DNA of 33,337 bases from Paracoccaceae bacterium (GTDB taxonomy: Bacteria > Pseudomonadota > Alphaproteobacteria > Rhodobacterales > Rhodobacteraceae): contig JAIXZY010000013.1 in assembly GCA_027489355.1 (NCBI GenBank), forward strand, positions 1-33,337. The letters run 5' to 3'. Shown in pieces: positions 1 to 11,349 of the stretch. The position numbers and the translations under genes are program-made. Below the pieces are notes generated by a model that worked only from the letters and a program-made list of their open reading frames with translations, was not told the DNA's origin and searched no databases. Position 1 is the first letter of the stretch. Every line of letters begins with the position of its first letter.

Positions 1-8
1 GACCGGGT

Positions 9-33
9 GCGGGTTTCAGCACCTGAAACCCGC
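9..33 (-). terminator. Perfect hairpin downstream of the small duplicated protein gene
   Basis: An 11-base arm (9-19) pairs perfectly with 23-33 around a 3-base loop. It lies about 16 bases beyond the stop codon of the leftward gene at 50-298, so it is well placed as its terminator. There is no T-run after it on the minus strand, so a factor-independent mechanism is uncertain. Confidence 0.45.
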
Positions 34-49
34 GCCGAAATTGAAGCGG

Positions 50-298
50 TCAACGCGCCTTGTTGGCTTGCGACAGGACCGACCCGGCCAAAGCTCTGGT
101 GCGCGCGCCGTATTTGGAGCTCGAAAGGACCTGTGACGCCCGGTCTTCCATGCGCGCGCCGGTTTGCCTGCCCGGCTTTGCCTGCGACAGTGCCGACCCG
201 GCGAGGCTTTTCGCCGTGGCTGAGGCCTTCGGGTTCAAGAGCGTCTTGGCCGCCCGCGATGCCATCTTGTCTGAGGTCTGCTTAGTATTACGTGCCAT
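50..298 (-). CDS. Small basic protein with an internal duplication, function unknown
   Basis: An 82-residue, strongly basic protein built from two related halves. Residues about 13-39 end in SLAGSALSQ and residues about 54-77 end in ALAGSVLSQ, each preceded by an alanine/serine/lysine-rich helix-like stretch. I chose the ATG at 298 because GGAG lies 6 bases upstream of it and a plausible promoter (328-356) would start transcription downstream of the alternative ATG at 337. No membrane segment, signal peptide or catalytic motif is visible. Proteins ending in A-G-S-x-L-S-Q units look familiar to me from proteobacterial genomic islands, but I cannot assign a role. It is transcribed divergently from the zinc-finger/TIR-like gene at 544, so the two could share regulation. 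A small nucleic-acid-binding or regulatory protein is possible from charge alone, which is weak evidence. Confidence 0.6.
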   Translation of the reverse strand: MARNTKQTSDKMASRAAKTLLNPKASATAKSLAGSALSQAKPGRQTGARMEDRASQVLSSSKYGARTRALAGSVLSQANKAR

Positions 299-327
299 GT
301 GAGACTCCGTAGATTGCCCTGACACAA

Positions 328-356
328 AATCTAGCATGGGTTCTCTTTTCGTTCAA
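328..356 (-). promoter_or_regulatory. Candidate sigma-70 promoter for the 82-residue protein
   Basis: On the minus strand, TTGAAC (351-356) and TAGATT (328-333) are separated by 17 bases, two mismatches each from the -35 and -10 consensus. The predicted start near 321 leaves a short leader before the ATG at 298. Inferred from sequence pattern only. Confidence 0.3.
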
Positions 357-488
357 AAGAAATCCGCAATACCTAGATGCGCGCTCGCTGGGCTACCGCA
401 TACCGACAAGCAAGGCCGCGAACCCCACCACCCACGTCAAGACGACACACCAGCCGATAAGCCTCATCATGATGCCCGTTCCGTCACC

Positions 489-516
489 TTGCACCTTGAA
501 CATAGCAACGTAGACT
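489..516 (+). promoter_or_regulatory. Weak candidate promoter for the zinc-finger/TIR-like gene
   Basis: TTGCAC (489-494) and TAGACT (511-516) are separated by 16 bases, about 28 bases before the ATG at 544. The match is imperfect and this is the only reasonable pair I see in the 245-base divergent intergenic stretch (299-543), which otherwise holds no convincing gene. Confidence 0.22.
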
Positions 517-543
517 GGCTGAACTGTCAGGAAAAGTAGGGCA

Positions 544-1965
544 ATGCCGTCAGAATTCTACAAAGGCGTTGAGTTAACCAGCCGACATGAGCTAGCTCAT
601 GAAATCAGCAAGATGCGGCAGATCGTTGACGGCATCGGGGTCCTTTCGAGCTGTATTGAAAGCATATGGTGCGACTCTAAGGCTGGTGCCAGCTACTCAG
701 TCGCGGTTAAGCCGGGAAAATGGCGGGACGCGCTGCCCGACGCTATCGCCGCTTCCACCTACGCGACAGGCGGTTACAATGCCATCTACATCGAAGCAGA
801 AGACGACAGAAGTCGCATCCTTGATGCCGATTGGCCCGGGGACGCAATGGAAATGGAACTTCTCGACGCGGCGGAAGTGGTGGAGGCAGAAAGAGTGAGT
901 CAGTTGCAGAAGGGGCTGTTACCGAACGGTTTCCTTGACCGCCTTCGGGCAGCCATACCTCTTTCAGAAGTCGTGGGCCGGTGGGTAAAATGGGACGCCC
1001 GAAAGAGCAATTTCTCAAAGGGCGACTACTGGGCGGCATGCCCATTCCACGATGAAACGACGACGAGTTTCCACGTCGATGACCAGAAGGGATTTTACTA
1101 TTGTTTTGGATGTCATGCGAAAGGGGACATCATAACGTTTGTGAAAGACAAGCAAAACCTTTCAATGATACAGGCGGTCAGGCGACTCGCCTTCGCAGCC
1201 GGATTGGATCACGAATTGTTACCCGCCACCCCCGCACCTCCGACTATACTTCAACTCAAGGAAGTGATCGTTGAGAACTTCACGAAAGAGCACTTCTTAG
1301 AGGTCGGCATCGTCACGGGCTGGACGAACTACATACGGTCGCACGACCGCTTGCTTCGTAGCCTGAGTTGGAACGACCCCGACTACGCGGGGAATGTTCT
1401 TGAGATGCTGGCAGCGATGGAGGCCCGTGGTGATGGATCGTTCGCCAAGCTCCAAGAATACATAGCTACAACCTTCTCTGAACAGGCCCACGTCGTGACA
1501 CAAACCGCCGTCTTTTCTGCAGCCAAGTCGGTACTCGGCTACCAGTACACGACCCCACGCAACGATATAATTGGGGTCATGATGCCGTTTCAGCCAAGCT
1601 TCGGTCCGGTGTACGACGCAATCAGGGAAGCCTGCGGGGATACCCCGCTTCCGGCAAAACGTGCCGATGAGGTGTGGACGCACTCGACCGTGATCAGCGA
1701 CATTCTGGAGCTAATCAACCATTCTGCCGTTGTCATTTGCGACCTGACGGGGCGCAATGAGAATGTGTTCTATGAACTGGGAATTGCTCATGCATGGGGA
1801 AAGACCGTAATCCCGATCACTCAGAACGCTGCGGACGTCCCGTTCGATCTGCGGCACCACCGGTATCTGTCGTATCTGAACAATGGCGAGGGCCTAAAGG
1901 CGATGCGCAGGGAACTGGGTAAGCGGTTGACGGGGCTGCTGGGTCATAGCCCGGACGAATTCTGA
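544..1965 (+). CDS. CHC2 zinc-finger / TIR-like (deoxyribosyltransferase-like) fusion protein
   Basis: A 473-residue protein with two recognisable parts. Residues about 128-220 match the N-terminal zinc-binding domain of DnaG primase: a helix with IPLSEVVGRWVK, then zinc ligands C166, H169, C187 and C190 (C-x2-H-x17-C-x2-C, with CPFH and CFGC) and the following A-V-R-R-L-A-F-A-A-G helix. No TOPRIM or primase catalytic core follows, so it should not make primers. Residues about 340-465 resemble TIR-like and nucleoside 2-deoxyribosyltransferase-like domains: IIGVMMPF, a helix with DILELINHSAVVICDLTGR, then NVFYELGIAHAWGK. E411 in YELG is the likely catalytic glutamate by family analogy. Residues 1-125 and 235-335 are unassigned; the latter contain a LLRSLSW segment. 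Such C-terminal domains in bacteria often belong to NAD-degrading defence effectors; a nucleic-acid-triggered effector is inference. GC content and codon use differ from the core genes. Confidence 0.75.
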   Translation: MPSEFYKGVELTSRHELAHEISKMRQIVDGIGVLSSCIESIWCDSKAGASYSVAVKPGKWRDALPDAIAASTYATGGYNAIYIEAEDDRSRILDADWPGDAMEMELLDAAEVVEAERVSQLQKGLLPNGFLDRLRAAIPLSEVVGRWVKWDARKSNFSKGDYWAACPFHDETTTSFHVDDQKGFYYCFGCHAKGDIITFVKDKQNLSMIQAVRRLAFAAGLDHELLPATPAPPTILQLKEVIVENFTKEHFLEVGIVTGWTNYIRSHDRLLRSLSWNDPDYAGNVLEMLAAMEARGDGSFAKLQEYIATTFSEQAHVVTQTAVFSAAKSVLGYQYTTPRNDIIGVMMPFQPSFGPVYDAIREACGDTPLPAKRADEVWTHSTVISDILELINHSAVVICDLTGRNENVFYELGIAHAWGKTVIPITQNAADVPFDLRHHRYLSYLNNGEGLKAMRRELGKRLTGLLGHSPDEF

Positions 1966-2005
1966 CTAATCAGCCGCCGTCGACCGAAGAAGCAGCAACT
2001 CTTCT

Positions 2006-2019
2006 TATACGGTTGTATA
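2006..2019. repeat. Small inverted repeat upstream of the recombinase
   Basis: TATAC and GTATA flank GGTT in the 176-base gap between the fusion gene and the recombinase. It could be an operator or part of a recombinase crossover site, but a 5-base palindrome is weak evidence. Confidence 0.25.
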
Positions 2020-2141
2020 GCATTTTGTCCGGCGTCCGAAGGCCGCTATTTCCATTCAAGGTCTTGAAGGGTCTCGCGAATCGTGCATGCTCAGACTATA
2101 AAGATCACAACGAACGTTGCACCGATTGAAAGGCCCGACAG

Positions 2142-2822
2142 ATGACCCGCGAACCCTTGAAATACGTCCTCTATTACCGGGTATCGACCAAGCAACAGGG
2201 CCGGTCCGGGCTGGGCTTGGATGCTCAGAAGCGCGATGTGGAGCTGTACCTCGCGAACTACAGCGACGCGCCCTATGAGGTGCTGGCCAGCTTCACGGAC
2301 ATAGAATCCGGGAAGCATGACGAACCCCGCCGCCGCCCCGGCCTTGCCGAAGCACTGGCCCTCTGCCGGAAGTCGAAAGCAATCCTGCTAGTGTCCAAGC
2401 TGGACCGCCTCTCGCGCCGCGTCAGCCATATCTCCGCACTGATGGAAGACAAGACCATCAACTTCAAGGTCGCTAGCCTGCCGAACGCTGACAACTTCCA
2501 ACTGCATATCTATGCGGCTCTAGCTGAGAAAGAGCGGGAATTCATTAGCTTACGGACCAAGCAGGCTCTTGCCGAGACCCGCTCACGCGGGACCGTATTA
2601 GGTGGGCTACGCACCAACACCGCCGCCCGGAATAAGGCGTCTAAGGCCATTGCCGACGCCAAGGCCCAAGACGTCGCTGGCATCATCCTACCAATGCGCG
2701 AGGCCAAAGCGACGCTGCAACAGATCGCAGACGCTTTGAACGCCGCCAATGTACCGACCCCGCGCGGGGCCACGTGGAAGCCTATGTCGGTCAAGAATGC
2801 CCTAGACAGACTCGCGGGGTGA
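2142..2822 (+). CDS. Serine recombinase of resolvase/invertase size
   Basis: A 226-residue site-specific recombinase. The resolvase catalytic domain spans about residues 6-145: YYRVSTKQQ supplies the nucleophile S15, and VSKLDRLSRR (about residues 85-94) carries the conserved arginines. A long helix with EKEREFISLRTKQAL follows, as in the family's dimer-forming E helix. The C-terminal part (about 180-226) has the TLQQIADALNAANVPTPRG helix-turn-helix typical of these proteins. At this length it lacks the large C-terminal domains of phage-type large serine integrases, so it fits a resolvase, invertase or small-element recombinase. A Shine-Dalgarno GAAAGG sits 8 bases before the ATG. It follows the zinc-finger/TIR-like gene by 176 bases and is followed by a hairpin and a cluster of short repeats that may be its sites. 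It marks this segment as mobile or formerly mobile. Confidence 0.88.
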   Translation: MTREPLKYVLYYRVSTKQQGRSGLGLDAQKRDVELYLANYSDAPYEVLASFTDIESGKHDEPRRRPGLAEALALCRKSKAILLVSKLDRLSRRVSHISALMEDKTINFKVASLPNADNFQLHIYAALAEKEREFISLRTKQALAETRSRGTVLGGLRTNTAARNKASKAIADAKAQDVAGIILPMREAKATLQQIADALNAANVPTPRGATWKPMSVKNALDRLAG

Positions 2823-2911
2823 GAGGCTGAGTACCCGCGTAAGCGGGGCGAAAGCCAACCGTCTCACACACCGAAACGACAAGTCATTGTCTTGCTACCG
2901 AATATAGTGGC

Positions 2912-2933
2912 GGGGACCCGTGACGGGTACCCC
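2912..2933 (+). terminator. Strong hairpin after the recombinase gene
   Basis: GGGG-ACCCG (2912-2920) pairs with CGGGT-CCCC (2924-2933) around a TGA loop with one bulged A at 2929. It lies 90 bases past the recombinase stop. No T-tract follows, so it may be a terminator or a structured site. Confidence 0.35.
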
Positions 2934-2971
2934 CTGTAGGGGTCCAAACCGGCGTAGTAGCCGCATGGACA

Positions 2972-3166
2972 GGTTGCAGCAACTGCACCCGTTCACCGGC
3001 AGGAAATCCAAGCCTTCATTGCGGCTTCAAGCGCAACTTGGTTACACGACCGGTTGCATTCACCCCCAGAATGGTTGCGCCCGGGGACCCGCCAGAGCAA
3101 CCCCACCCCTTCCTGAATCTCCATTCCGGCCTCCACATTTTTCGCCGGATTTTCCCAAATGGTTGC
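2972..3166. repeat. Cluster of GGTTGC / GCAAC motifs in the gap after the recombinase
   Basis: The gap from 2823 to 3379 holds no convincing gene. It contains GGTTGC at 2972, 3052, 3073 and 3161 and GCAAC at 2979, 3033 and 3097. These form an 11-base palindrome (2973-2983), an inverted pair 3033-3057 and an inverted pair 3073-3102. The direct copies at 3052 and 3073 are 21 bases apart, two helical turns. Seven hits of one 5-mer in about 200 bases is far above chance. Recombinase or regulator binding sites are plausible by position. Confidence 0.4.
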
Positions 3167-3383
3167 CCATGGACGTGTGAGCCGTTCTTCTCGGAAGTTT
3201 GGAGAATTCCAGCTTCTGATGTACAATTCAGGGGTCGAAGTGGAAGAGCGTCCGGGGGCGGGTCTAGTCTTCATCCCGCCCCCGGATATCAACTTCCCCG
3301 ACCTTCGGCATTCCCTCCACAGACAAGCGCCCGCGCTAACAGCGCACCCCCGACAGGGCCAAGCGCGAAAGCTCTCCCATTGA
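3159..3383 (+). CDS. Doubtful 74-residue open frame coupled to the tape-measure gene
   Basis: The frame is open from 3117, with an ATG at 3159, and its TGA (3381-3383) overlaps the TTG start proposed for the tape-measure gene at 3380. That arrangement is typical of translationally coupled phage genes. The product is rich in proline and arginine, contains FIPPPDINFPDLRH, and matches no family I recognise. It could be a remnant of a phage tail gene, since tail-assembly chaperone genes normally precede a tape measure. It could equally be non-coding sequence left open by base composition. No clear ribosome binding site precedes the ATG at 3159. Confidence 0.2.
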   Translation: MVAHGRVSRSSRKFGEFQLLMYNSGVEVEERPGAGLVFIPPPDINFPDLRHSLHRQAPALTAHPRQGQARKLSH

Positions 3384-6300
3384 CCCAGACTCACGAACTT
3401 CGACTAAAGATCGACGCCGCTTCCGCCGAATCCGGCGCGAAGCGATTCACCGCCGCCATTGCCGCCGTCAAGAAGGCGGTTTCAGAACTGGACCGACAGG
3501 CGGACGGAACGTTTGCCAAGCTGGCAAACCACAAACCGCAATTTGACGTTCCCAGCCTCACCCGCGCGACCACAGAAGCCAACCGCCTGTCCACCGCAAT
3601 CAACGGAACCGCGTCCGCGTCCGACCGCGCCGCCGCAGATATCCGGAAGCTCGCCCTACAGTCCGCGAACGCCTTGCGCGTCTCGACCGATCAGGCCAGC
3701 CGACTTCGCGACCGTCTGCTTTCGGTCGGAGATACTGCCGGACTCGACCGCCTAGAAGCTGGCCTGTCTCGCCTGCGCTCCAACCTGATCGCTGCTACGT
3801 CTGGACTCGACGTCCGCGAGGCACGTGCCGGGTACGCGGACCTTGCCAGCGAACTCAATCGGACCGCCCGCGAAGCTGAAAGACTCCGGGCCGCTGCTAT
3901 CTCGGAAGAGCGGGCCCTAGAAGAGGCCAGCCGTGCCGCCGCCACACATGCAGACGCGCTGCAACGCCTTCGCGCAGCACATGACCCGATCTTTGCGTCA
4001 AGTCAGCGCTACGCCGTCGCTTTGTCCGAGATTGACACGCTAGTGTCTGCGAACGTCGTGAGCGAAGCCCAAGCCGCCGCTATGCGCGACCGCGCCGCGC
4101 AGTCCTACCTGACCGCCGGTAACGCAGCAGACATGTACGCCGGACAGGCCCGCATGGCCCAAATGGCGACGCAGCAAGTCGGCTTCCAACTGAATGACAT
4201 TGGCGTCATGCTGACGGGCGGAATGTCTCCCCTGTCCATCGCCGTGGGACAGGGTACGCAGCTCGCACAGACGTTCCAGAGTTTCGGAAAAGGGACGTCT
4301 GTTCTGTCCACCCTTGCCGGTGGGTTCACTGCCCTGTTCTCGCCCGTCTCGCTGATCACGATTGGCGTAATCGGACTCGGGGCGGCAATCGTTCAGTGGA
4401 TGATGAGTGGCAGCGACGAAACCCGATCATTCGCAGACGCTCTGGGAGACGCTAACAGCGCGATTTCCAGCGTGCGGCAGGCAACCGACCTGCTAGCCGG
4501 GGCCTCTCTCGGAAGCCTTGCAGACGGCTATGGGCGGGTAAATGCGGAGCTACAGACCCACCTCGAAAAGCTGCAAGAGATCGCCCGTATCGAAGCCACA
4601 CAGAAGACCTCTGCGGCTTTGTCCGCCGTGGGTGACGAATTCCTTGGCGGGTGGTTGACGTCCGATGTTGACGACATGCGGATTGCGTTCAGCACGACGA
4701 ACGACCAAGCCCGAGTCCTTCTTGGCATGCTTGAGCAGATCAAGGCCGCGCGGACTTTCGAAGAACAGCTAGCGTCAGTCACCGCCATGCGTACCGAAGT
4801 CGAAAGCGTAACCGGTGGCATCAAGCGAGCAGAAGGTGGGGCCCTCGCGTTCCTGACCCAACTCCTGAAAGCGGAAGACGCAGGCCTGCGTCTCAACGCT
4901 GCCACCGAAGGGACCGCCGGAGCTGCAAGCCACGCCGCAGGGAATGCTTCTAGCCTCTCCTACACCATCGGAACCGCAGCCGACGAAGCCGCGCGTCTGC
5001 TAGCCAACCTGAACAGCGTCCCGGGCGCGCTGGCAGCGATGGGCCGCAGCGTTCAAGGCCAGATCGAAAGCATCCGGGCACAGAATGCCGCCCTCAACCT
5101 TGAGCTAACCGAAGGCCTTTCCAGCGCCGCCGCTAACCGCCGCGTCCAGCTTGATACGATGATCACGACCGCTGGAACGCGCGGGCAGAAACTCAACTTC
5201 GATCAGATCGCTAGCGAGTACGCCGCTATTGCCGAACTGGACGCCGCGTCGAAGGAAACGGACCGACTCCGGGCGGAAATCAGTGAGAAGAACAGGCCCG
5301 CCAAAGGCGCGGGCGGCGGTGGAGGCCGGGCCAGATCGTTGAGCGAAGAGGCGAAGGCAACAGAAGAGCTCAACAAGTCGCTGAAAGAGCGTCTGACCAG
5401 CCTTGAAGCCGAACGGGTGCAGCTCGCGGTGCTGGCCAGTGGTCAGTTTGAAACGGCGGAAGCTGCCCAGTTGTTCGCGGAAGCCATGGTAGCAGGAGGC
5501 GGGGCCGTCGACTCCCAGACTGCCGCCATGATTCAACAGATCGACGCCGCGACCAAGCTCAACGCAGAACTGCAGAAGCTGGCACGCGACCCGGTCAAGG
5601 AATGGATGGACTCCGTTCCGAACTGGATCGAAGCCGGTAAGCAGATCGAAATGGGGGCAATCGACTCCCTGAAGACCGCGATTGCTGACTTCATTAAGAC
5701 TGGCAAATTCGACCTAGAGTCGCTTGGCGAGGCCATTCTAGGAACGTTCGCTGACGTTATCGCGGATAAAGCCACGAAAGAGCTTATGACCCTGCTAGGT
5801 CGGGGCGAAACGGGGTCGCAGGGTTGGCTTGGCGGGCTCTTCGGTGACCTCTTCCAATCGGCAGGCGATACGCCAATGCCGGGCGCGGGCGCAGATATGC
5901 TGGCAGGTAGTCAGCAAGCTGGGACAACCATCGCCACCAGCATGACCACGGCGGGCCAGCAAGTCGCCATGGACATTCAGGCCGCAATGACGTCCGGCGG
6001 ATCACAGGCAGGCGCATCTGTCCAAACCGGACTCGCTACAGGGTCCGCGAGTGTGCGTACCGCCGCCCATACCGGCCTCGCCACGGGGTCCAACAATATC
6101 CGCCTTGCCTCCACCACAGGTGGGGCCGAGCTAGGACGTGGCGTCGTTACCGGGGCACAGCAAGGGGCTCCGATCCTATCCGCCGCCGTAGCAGGTGGCG
6201 GCATGAGTGGCGGCGGTATGTTCAGCTTCGAGTCCATCCTAGGCATGGCTCTGGGGGCGTTCTCTGAAGGTGGTTATTCGACTGCGCCAGTCGGCTTCGC

Positions 6301-6586
6301 GTCCATGCCGCCTTCCGCGTTCCGACACGCCCCACACTTCGCGCAAGGCACCCCGAACACTTCCGGCATCCCCGCCGTCCTACACCCGAACGAAGCCGTT
6401 ATCCCTCTCTCACGAGGGCGCAAGATTCCGGTGGAGATGGGCGAGGCCGGGGGCAGCACGATCATCAACGCGCCGCAGAGCATTACCATCAACACGCCAG
6501 ACGCGGACTCCTTCCGCCGGTCCCGGAAACAGGTCGCCGCAGACATGGCGCGGGCCGGGCAAACCGCAGTCAGGCAGAACGGGTGA
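3380..6586 (+). CDS. Phage tail length tape-measure protein
   Basis: About 1,068 residues from a TTG start at 3380. An upstream TTG at 3038 keeps the frame open, but the extra 114 residues are proline/arginine-rich and unlike protein, while LTQTHELRLKIDA is a typical tape-measure N-terminus and its TTGA overlaps the stop of the preceding frame. Residues about 10-260 are long alanine/arginine-rich coiled coil. Residues about 263-280 carry QVGFQLNDIGVMLTGG, the conserved TMP_2-type motif, followed by a hydrophobic stretch (about 306-343) as expected for a protein that threads the membrane during DNA entry. The C-terminus has HPNEAVIPLSRG (about 1003-1014), a hallmark of tape-measure ends. Family role: sets tail length in siphovirus-like tails and acts in DNA injection. 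No tail tube, terminase, capsid or tail-fibre gene is recognisable on either side, so it looks orphaned. Confidence 0.85.
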   Translation: MTQTHELRLKIDAASAESGAKRFTAAIAAVKKAVSELDRQADGTFAKLANHKPQFDVPSLTRATTEANRLSTAINGTASASDRAAADIRKLALQSANALRVSTDQASRLRDRLLSVGDTAGLDRLEAGLSRLRSNLIAATSGLDVREARAGYADLASELNRTAREAERLRAAAISEERALEEASRAAATHADALQRLRAAHDPIFASSQRYAVALSEIDTLVSANVVSEAQAAAMRDRAAQSYLTAGNAADMYAGQARMAQMATQQVGFQLNDIGVMLTGGMSPLSIAVGQGTQLAQTFQSFGKGTSVLSTLAGGFTALFSPVSLITIGVIGLGAAIVQWMMSGSDETRSFADALGDANSAISSVRQATDLLAGASLGSLADGYGRVNAELQTHLEKLQEIARIEATQKTSAALSAVGDEFLGGWLTSDVDDMRIAFSTTNDQARVLLGMLEQIKAARTFEEQLASVTAMRTEVESVTGGIKRAEGGALAFLTQLLKAEDAGLRLNAATEGTAGAASHAAGNASSLSYTIGTAADEAARLLANLNSVPGALAAMGRSVQGQIESIRAQNAALNLELTEGLSSAAANRRVQLDTMITTAGTRGQKLNFDQIASEYAAIAELDAASKETDRLRAEISEKNRPAKGAGGGGGRARSLSEEAKATEELNKSLKERLTSLEAERVQLAVLASGQFETAEAAQLFAEAMVAGGGAVDSQTAAMIQQIDAATKLNAELQKLARDPVKEWMDSVPNWIEAGKQIEMGAIDSLKTAIADFIKTGKFDLESLGEAILGTFADVIADKATKELMTLLGRGETGSQGWLGGLFGDLFQSAGDTPMPGAGADMLAGSQQAGTTIATSMTTAGQQVAMDIQAAMTSGGSQAGASVQTGLATGSASVRTAAHTGLATGSNNIRLASTTGGAELGRGVVTGAQQGAPILSAAVAGGGMSGGGMFSFESILGMALGAFSEGGYSTAPVGFASMPPSAFRHAPHFAQGTPNTSGIPAVLHPNEAVIPLSRGRKIPVEMGEAGGSTIINAPQSITINTPDADSFRRSRKQVAADMARAGQTAVRQNG

Positions 6587-6590
6587 CGCC

Positions 6591-6755
6591 ATGACCCACC
6601 CTACAGGCCACTGGTACCAGATCATTGAACCAACCGCCGCGAAGCTACGCGCGTACTTCGAAGCTGGAATTCCCGTAATCGTCAGCCCGGACGGGCTGAC
6701 CTTCCGAGCTGAGCGACGCTTGCCCGCTGATGCGGGCCACCAGCAAGAAAGCTAG
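6591..6755 (+). CDS. 54-residue hypothetical protein after the tape measure
   Basis: Begins with an ATG 5 bases after the tape-measure stop and on the same strand, which suggests one transcript. The product starts MTHPTGHWYQI and has a compact fold-like pattern (AKLRAYFEAGIPVIVSPDGLTFRAE) with a short charged tail. No family is recognised. Small genes following tape-measure genes in phages often encode tail components, but nothing in the sequence proves that here. The frame is open farther upstream inside the tape-measure gene, but that part is only a shadow of the larger gene. Confidence 0.45.
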   Translation: MTHPTGHWYQIIEPTAAKLRAYFEAGIPVIVSPDGLTFRAERRLPADAGHQQES

Positions 6756-6820
6756 TCGACTCATGACTGACCGGGAGGGGTCGAATGGCCGCTTTCTCAT
6801 GCCGCCGCCTGTGGCATTTC

Positions 6821-6851
6821 TACCATACAAAAACATACCGCTTACCATACA
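6821..6851. repeat. Direct repeat TACCATACA between the tape-measure region and tRNA-Pro
   Basis: TACCATACA occurs at 6821-6829 and 6843-6851, exactly 22 bases start to start, with a related ACATACCG between. The rest of 6756-6900 is AT-richer than its surroundings and non-coding. Two helical turns of spacing suits a protein-binding pair, for example integrase arm sites or an operator. Confidence 0.35.
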
Positions 6852-6900
6852 CTGGCTTCGGCGATATCGTTTAAGTAGTTGATTTCTTTCGGGATTTTAT

Positions 6901-6977
6901 TGGTCGGAGCGAGAGGATTCGAACCTCCGACCCCCTGCTCCCGAAGCAGGTGCGCTACCAGACTGCGCTACGCTCCG
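6901..6977 (-). tRNA. tRNA-Pro (anticodon CGG)
   Basis: On the minus strand the 77 bases fold as a full tRNA: acceptor arms CGGAGCG (6977-6971) and CGCTCCG (6911-6905), discriminator A, an encoded CCA (6903-6901), a D-arm with GGTAGCGC, an anticodon arm CCTGC-TTCGGGA-GCAGG with CGG at 6943-6941, and a T-arm with GGTTCGAATCC. It resembles bacterial proline tRNA with CGG. It stands at the border between the phage-like segment and core genes, a common position for integrated elements, although no second copy of its 3' end is visible in this window. Confidence 0.97.
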
Positions 6978-10376: not shown

Positions 10377-11349
10377 CGCGGTCCAGCCGCGAGGGTTCGA
10401 TCGCGCCCAGCACCGCCAGCTTCGCCGCCCGCTTGATGCGGATCATGTCGGCGATGCGCGCCATCGCCACGGCCCGCATGATCAGGGCCGCCGGCAGGTA
10501 GGCCCACAGCGCCATCGCCCAGATCAGCGTCTGCGGCGAGGTCAGCGTCTCTGCCGGGATGCCCGTCGTCAGCAGCGCGACCACCGCCGGGATCACGAAG
10601 GGCAACAGGAAGCCCACCGCCAGGTTCGCATGGGAATCCCGCACCAGCCGGTCCACCACGTCGCCGCCCGCCGTCGGCTCGAAGGTGGGCAGGTTGACCC
10701 AGACGTTGAACGCCGCCTTGGTCGACGGCCAGCCCACCAGCTTCAGCACGATCACGAACAGCGCCAGCGACAAAAGCGAGATCAGGTAGGCCGTCGCCGC
10801 CGCGATCTTGACCTGGGCGATCTGCTCCAGCGTCGCGCTGTCGTCCAGCATGTAGCTGGCAAGCCGCACCGGCGAATAGGGGAAGTCGAGCGAGGCCCCG
10901 ATCAGCAGCCCCACCGCGTGCAGGAAGCGCGACACCGTGGTCGAGGCGTCGATGTCCGCGACGATCGCCGACAGGATGACCACGATCGACAGCATCATCA
11001 GATAGCGCACCCGGTTGTAGGGTGCGCCGTCGCGGAACTCGATCAGGCTGGGATAGACGGCGTTGTACTCGAAGAAGACCAGCGCGCCGCCGAACAGGGC
11101 GACCAGAGCGACGATCTGCTTGGTGTCGGTGCCGATGCCCGGCAGGATGACCGAGGGCATCACGATCAGGATCATCACCAGGAAGGCGCGGACCCCCGCC
11201 GCCATCGCCCGCGACAGCCAGGTCCGCGCCCAGCCGTCTGTCGAAACCACCGCCGTCAGCCGCAGCTTGCTGCGCAGCCCCTCGATCAACGCGGTTCCGT
11301 TTGCCACAATTCCGCCCAATTCCGCACCGTTTCCAGCCGACTCGATCAC
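10351..11349 (-). CDS. Multi-pass membrane protein of unknown function
   Basis: A 332-residue protein with about six to eight hydrophobic segments (for example FLVMILIVMPSVILPGIG, IVALVALFGGALVFFEYNAV, YLISLLSLALFVIVLKLVGW, LLPFVIPAVVALLTTGIP and a pair near residue 280) and a very acidic C-terminus ending EDEDDD. The start at 11349 is GTG with a poor Shine-Dalgarno, so a later start is possible. I do not recognise a named family. The gene overlaps the following endonuclease/phosphatase gene and probably shares its transcript. Confidence 0.7.
   Translation of the reverse strand: MIESAGNGAELGGIVANGTALIEGLRSKLRLTAVVSTDGWARTWLSRAMAAGVRAFLVMILIVMPSVILPGIGTDTKQIVALVALFGGALVFFEYNAVYPSLIEFRDGAPYNRVRYLMMLSIVVILSAIVADIDASTTVSRFLHAVGLLIGASLDFPYSPVRLASYMLDDSATLEQIAQVKIAAATAYLISLLSLALFVIVLKLVGWPSTKAAFNVWVNLPTFEPTAGGDVVDRLVRDSHANLAVGFLLPFVIPAVVALLTTGIPAETLTSPQTLIWAMALWAYLPAALIMRAVAMARIADMIRIKRAAKLAVLGAIEPSRLDRDEDEDDDL

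Follow-up and report, generated by a model that had tools for sequence, protein, structure and literature searches.

What can a bacterium do with a zinc-binding domain like that of its primase, DnaG, when such a domain stands apart from the primase and is joined to a TIR-like domain? The question is raised by one gene in a 33,337-nucleotide stretch of a Paracoccaceae bacterium (GenBank assembly GCA_027489355.1, contig JAIXZY010000013.1, positions 1–33,337; here called the window). The protein it encodes carries, in order, an N-terminal domain, a DnaG-type CHC2 zinc module, the helical domain AbiJ_NTD5 and a C-terminal domain resembling TIR domains and nucleoside deoxyribosyltransferases (NDT):

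544–1965, forward strand: gene of the four-part protein, ATG start, 473 amino acids
544–909, forward strand: N-terminal domain (N-domain), residues 1–122, alpha+beta, without a clear fold match
919–1218, forward strand: DnaG-type CHC2 zinc module, residues 126–225
1039–1113, forward strand: zinc ligands C166 (1039–1041), H169 (1048–1050), C187 (1102–1104) and C190 (1111–1113)
1246–1536, forward strand: AbiJ_NTD5 helical domain, residues 235–331 (235–317 in Pfam)
1564–1941, forward strand: TIR/NDT-like domain, residues 341–466, with E411 at 1774–1776

The arrangement is real and recurrent; the gene most likely encodes a one-gene abortive-infection protein, and its role would be defensive. As to how it works, we tentatively favour, at somewhat less than an even chance, a system complete in one protein, in which the zinc module senses phage replication and the TIR-like domain cleaves NAD+. 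The zinc module, similar to the one in the host's own DnaG, would be the sensor and DNA its ligand, bound as single-stranded, primable phage DNA. AbiJ_NTD5 would couple the module to the TIR-like domain, probably via oligomers; once activated, this domain would cleave NAD+ rather than another nucleotide, and the loss of NAD+ would stop the infected cell. Many phages have the priming step of DNA replication in common with their host, and a host-matched primase zinc domain in a defence protein would mean, if this is true, that priming itself is what cells guard or read. The trigger is a testable question: as a DnaG domain, the module has a known fold and offers an obvious mutation, that of its zinc ligands, which makes sensing open to direct test.

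Two of the domains are recognised with confidence by Pfam, namely the CHC2 zinc finger (residues 129–223, E 1.2e-23, passing the cut-off) and AbiJ_NTD5 (residues 235–317, E 1.6e-25, 89.3 bits against a cut-off of 26.7), the latter a predicted abortive-infection domain. An initial annotation, made from the sequence alone, had named the four zinc ligands and E411, all of which are present where it placed them, and had described two segments as unassigned; this still holds for 1–125, while 235–335 is now accounted for by AbiJ_NTD5. It had also noted a missing primase core. The NCBIfam dnaG model matches residues 127–226 only (profile positions 3–97 of 414; 88 bits against 283.6), and since the match stops at position 97 the core is absent: the protein shares the zinc-binding domain with DnaG primase but does not continue, as DnaG does, into a Toprim/RNA polymerase core. 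The zinc ligands are invariant in 18/18 aligned CHC2-bearing sequences, the window protein included, and a protein search returned relatives with the same domain order, so that the arrangement is not due to chance. The CHC2 part is also matched by PADLOC models of DRT-associated DnaG-like proteins and RT_UG29, which likewise place such a module in a defence setting, though only this part of the protein matches; no reverse transcriptase was found among the four window proteins scanned, upstream of which the sequence stops at the contig end.

The C-terminal domain had been called TIR-like or deoxyribosyltransferase-like, a description borne out by a PADLOC TIR effector model (residues 377–449, E 5.6e-9) and by a predicted structure with a TIR/NDT/DNPH1 fold. 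In comparison of this model with PDB structures, DNPH1 and TIR entries are tied, at most 1 Z apart. Among the 55 relatives examined (out of the best 67 matches), 54 have the TIR-like part, and E411, which by its motif would be the catalytic glutamate, is kept in 54/55 when they are aligned. Another explanation is that the protein has no part in defence, being instead a nucleotide-salvage hydrolase like DNPH1 or a replication-linked regulator of a mobile island. We consider this very improbable; the tie within 1 Z tells against it, as do the genomic settings described below.

Several known systems resemble parts of the protein. SpbK and the TIR-APAZ protein of SPARTA have, as here, a TIR-like domain with a conserved glutamate, and SpbK is carried by a mobile element, as the window gene probably is; neither is known to have the primase zinc module found in the window protein. 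Retron-Eco1 reportedly hydrolyses NAD+ through an NDT-like domain and is said to need a reverse transcriptase and multicopy single-stranded DNA (msDNA), whereas here there is one protein, with no reverse transcriptase among the neighbours scanned. The title of a reference within PMC12548924 describes the Retron-Eco1 effector as NDT-like, comparable to the domain seen here. SPARTA TIR-APAZ uses a guide RNA and target DNA, according to PDB titles, and SpbK, a TIR NADase abortive-infection protein, is described as interacting with the phage protein YonE (PMC12847820). In a preprint (PMC13174449), DUF4062 (Swarozyc) is presented as a family of TIR-like NADases close to both TIR and NDT; its domain resembles ours in lying between those two and in its conserved glutamate, but the window protein has no Pfam match to DUF4062.

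The closest precedent is a family tabulated in 2013. The initial annotation knew of no described protein with this domain order, but the AbiJ-NTD5 entry in Table 2 of Anantharaman 2013 (PMC3710099) names AbiJ and a TIR nuclease as fusion partners and adds that "some" have a DnaG-like CxxH-CxxC Zn ribbon as an extra N-terminal domain, which rules out the order as new. The window protein has all three features of that family, AbiJ_NTD5, a C-terminal TIR-like domain and the optional DnaG-like ribbon in front, and differs in its extra N-terminal domain 1–122. The annotation's sensor-plus-effector reading stands in part, with the corrections that the order was described and that 235–331 is AbiJ_NTD5. 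The passages of the 2013 paper that concern the family propose that Abi-NTDs contact viral targets and that the C-terminal enzymes are toxins; they call the last domain a TIR nuclease, where we infer an N-glycosidase, and give neither the lineage of the zinc module nor an island context, both of which are provided here. A literature search found no functional test of an AbiJ-NTD5–TIR protein with a DnaG-like ribbon, though its phrase matching was insensitive and the 2013 paper is worded differently. Beyond the described order we add the version with the N-domain, the likeness to the primase of the host's group and the cargo slot, none of which we have seen in print.

How constant is the zinc module within this family? 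A protein search scored 8000 candidates and gave 2989 matches, of which the best 120 were listed, the later ones being DnaG and other proteins. AbiJ_NTD5 is present by Pfam in all of the best 67, and in 55/55 aligned relatives. When these 67 were classified by CHC2 motif and N-domain profile, six had both parts (the window protein included), 27 had CHC2 without the N-domain (26 by motif and P0027 by Pfam), two had the N-domain without CHC2, and 32 had neither, some entries being fragments, possibly including some of these 32; P0016 and L188 have an identical sequence and were both counted. The split therefore marks AbiJ_NTD5 plus TIR as the core, with the N-domain and the zinc module variable. 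It is also what one would expect if the zinc module were only structural or localising, for instance at replication forks, with AbiJ_NTD5 or the N-domain sensing the trigger, an explanation that we regard as doubtful but worth weighing: AbiJ_NTD5 is found with neither module in the 32 matches, the N-domain occurs without the zinc module in two, and Abi-NTDs were proposed as the interacting part in the passages of PMC3710099 cited above. Against this, members that have the module hardly vary at its zinc ligands or at K193. Six of the proteins found (P0040, P0042, P0045, P0051, P0066 and P0070) carry other N-terminal extensions, either before AbiJ5-TIR or before a lone TIR-like domain, a hint that the range of exchangeable N-terminal parts is wider.

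We searched genomes with the AbiJ5 + TIR part as query, counting matches with E below 1e-90; the samples overlap, so the counts are not additive. The part is found in 4/394 genomes of the host family, in 3/390 of the order (two of them new, both from the host family), and in 1/385 of the class and 1/398 of the phylum, the host's own genome being included in the first two counts and the only one in the last two. The best class-level relative beyond the host family (G655) is a 253-residue protein without CHC2. One relative (L188), a CHC2-TIR gene, lies on a tRNA-Ser island with an integrase and a Prim-Pol, and another (L203) on a contig that also carries an integrase. Directly 5' of the L188 gene lies the family N-domain (10586–10861), which an in-frame stop interrupts; the reading frame through the zinc and effector parts is intact. 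Of 37 plasmid records, three match the query over 80% or more of its length, and the CHC2 motif was not found within the 18.7–18.8 kb around these three. The relative on pAtCG920, whose match begins 5' of the annotated gene, is flanked by DUF262 and caspase/TIR/CHAT genes; that on pCB3060_2 is near ThiF/multiubiquitin, 7-deazaguanine synthase, dGTPase and HipA genes, and may be broken, since its match is split into three pieces across two annotated genes. The third, on a Sphingorhabdus plasmid, lies one gene beyond Dcm, Vsr and a type II restriction enzyme.

For the origin of the zinc module, we compared 35 family CHC2 sequences with the DnaG loci kept from the genome scan and with the host's own DnaG (P0035 was set aside in the position, identity and clade comparisons and the viral sequence L140 in the identity and clade tests; P0026, P0027 and P0032 are not in the CHC2 set by motif). 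The family sequences are on average 57.9% identical to the 47 DnaG of Rhodobacterales and 45.9% to the 21 of Hyphomicrobiales, the two DnaG groups being 53.8% alike over the module. The host's own DnaG, which groups beside Tabrizicola DnaG in a tree, is 62–64% identical across it. A quick tree, with little data at 101 columns and 127 sequences, puts 35/36 family members in one group with weak support (78), a group that also takes in one viral sequence and three DnaG from uncultured alphaproteobacteria. The opposite side (support 91) holds the Hyphomicrobiales, 9/10 viral sequences, P0035 and one Rhodobacteraceae DnaG. A single clade of the 35 family sequences is not rejected (p-AU 0.709). The best reading of these comparisons would be that the zinc domain of a DnaG was captured a single time, long ago, close to the base of the Rhodobacterales.

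The same likeness can be read as that of a decoy, in which the module mimics host DnaG and the TIR-like domain is triggered by phage proteins that bind, inhibit or hijack primase, or by a primase core in trans; the effector logic is that of the favoured explanation and the trigger is another. Such a decoy needs a lineage-matched surface, and for that reason it counts in its favour that 34/35 family sequences are nearer Rhodobacterales than Hyphomicrobiales DnaG, as does the identity to the host's own DnaG. So do 10 positions outside the zinc ligands at which the two DnaG groups differ and the residue most frequent in the family matches Rhodobacterales. However, shared descent also explains the likeness, and the module diverges about as much within the family (roughly 60% identical) as from Rhodobacterales DnaG (58%). 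We are not aware of any phage protein directed against the zinc domain of DnaG, though no search aimed at one was made, and think this alternative unlikely.

For the favoured explanation, in which the module senses DNA, the surface gives mixed indications. The net charge of the module is +1.8 against +0.2 in DnaG, and K193, adjoining the zinc site, is kept in 35/35 family sequences; the slightly higher positive charge and the kept lysine would speak for retained DNA binding. Other observations weigh against the explanation. K147 of Rhodobacterales DnaG is replaced by W in 63% of the 35 sequences and K172 by T in 49% (K is retained in 29%), the window protein having both changes, which would weaken the DNA-sensor view if those lysines are DNA contacts. 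Judged by the family's sequences, the zinc module is not essential to the AbiJ5 + TIR core. Two family genes (L187 and L202) stand alone among neighbours that look housekeeping by eye, and the C-terminal domain matches Nuc_deoxyrib_tr (PF05014; residues 359–432, E 0.0013) at 19.3 bits, under the cut-off of 28.8. Finally, PMC6163395 states that the zinc-binding domain of DnaG mediates sequence recognition, and describes its precise role as not settled. A second DnaG-like gene of the assembly (L003, G000:C66) has all four zinc-ligand positions replaced (SPFS ... DFSS); its contig is perhaps a contaminant.

The surroundings of the gene contain the following features:

50–337, reverse strand: small open reading frame (ORF) flanking the cargo slot on its far side, with a 65% identical counterpart in the related stretch L247
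2142–2822, forward strand: small serine recombinase, 226 amino acids (Pfam)
3038–6586, forward strand: tape-measure-like protein gene (TMP_2, Tape_meas_lam_C), true start probably about 3340–3370
6821–6851, forward strand: two copies of TACCATACA (at 6821 and 6843), possible integrase arm sites
6899–6924, forward strand: 26-bp att-like block, with an exact copy on contig C44 (L269, 10264–10289)
6901–6977, reverse strand: tRNA-Pro (CGG), the apparent integration site

The att-like block lies at the 3' end of the tRNA-Pro, and TACCATACA occurs twice beside each of its copies, in the window and on C44. There the copy is followed by an integrase-type ORF with weak Pfam matches (DUF6538, E 3e-6; Phage_integrase, E 0.0015), and the contig also encodes a 1093-residue protein, itself without a Pfam match, that is 31% identical (E 9e-50) to the DUF927 protein of another island. 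G+C content is 59.7% in window 1–6898, 55.0% in the gene itself and 60.2% in the C44 part, against 67% in host parts. Owing to the att-like copy, the TACCATACA pairs and the low G+C, we infer that the gene is most likely cargo of an integrative island, about 16 kb long or longer, comprising window 1–6924 and part of contig C44. The island is deduced rather than joined, as the ends of C44 and C42 share no identical run as long as 15 bases, and the classic empty-site proof is missing because in 5/5 congeners only the att block matches when C44 host sequence left of its copy is compared with the region beyond the tRNA-Pro.

To compare islands we searched 394 genomes of the host family with the tape-measure protein, which gave 13 with E <= 1e-20, the host's own included, and took five stretches from four of them in addition to L186. 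The slot 5' of the tape-measure gene swaps its cargo, holding CHC2-TIR here and DarTG or an HNH nuclease in related islands. L186 has a DUF927-related protein, CHC2-TIR, a different serine recombinase, the tape-measure gene, an integrase and tRNA-Thr. L248 has a DUF927 protein, an HNH gene, a recombinase, the tape-measure gene and tRNA-Phe, and L250 a DUF5906 protein, DarG and DarT, the tape-measure gene and an integrase. The cargo is not clear in L249 (DUF927 protein, tape-measure gene, integrase, tRNA-Pro (TGG)); L247 has the small ORF, a 390-residue gene, the tape-measure gene and the same tRNA-Pro as the window, and L251 retains only the tape-measure end. That unrelated defence genes occupy the slot in L248 and L250, and that the gene is also solitary in chromosomes (L187, L202), argue further against a salvage or regulatory function. 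By analogy with the integrated decoys of plant immune receptors, the DnaG zinc replica might be bait on an NAD-destroying effector, which islands trade against DarTG or HNH modules, a picture to which we give a low probability.

The initial annotation had drawn support from a mobile-looking segment beside a recombinase. The mobile setting is upheld, but the recombinase was rejected as a functional partner of the gene: the serine recombinase of L186 bears little resemblance to the window's (21%, E 0.44), and a relative 69% identical to the window's adjoins the HNH gene in L248 instead. Searches with both detected none in L247, L249, L250 or L251, so the slot does not always come with a recombinase; by these comparisons the window's recombinase goes with the island and not with the CHC2-TIR gene.

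The slot is a concrete place to seek further defence genes. In L248 (8778–9539) it holds an HNH nuclease resembling PADLOC PDC-M68A and CBASS-type HNH effectors, and in L250 (11696–13530) the pair of DarG (macro) and DarT. The islands (window 1–6924, L186 and L247–L250) are linked to tRNA genes, have a protein of DUF927/DUF5906 type or a relative, and mostly a tyrosine integrase. At one end each has one gene resembling a tail tape measure, and the proteins scanned included no further recognisable tail protein; such islands of the host family are possibly phage satellites. The 390-residue protein in the slot of L247 (1137–2309) has no Pfam or PADLOC match and is a candidate new defence gene.
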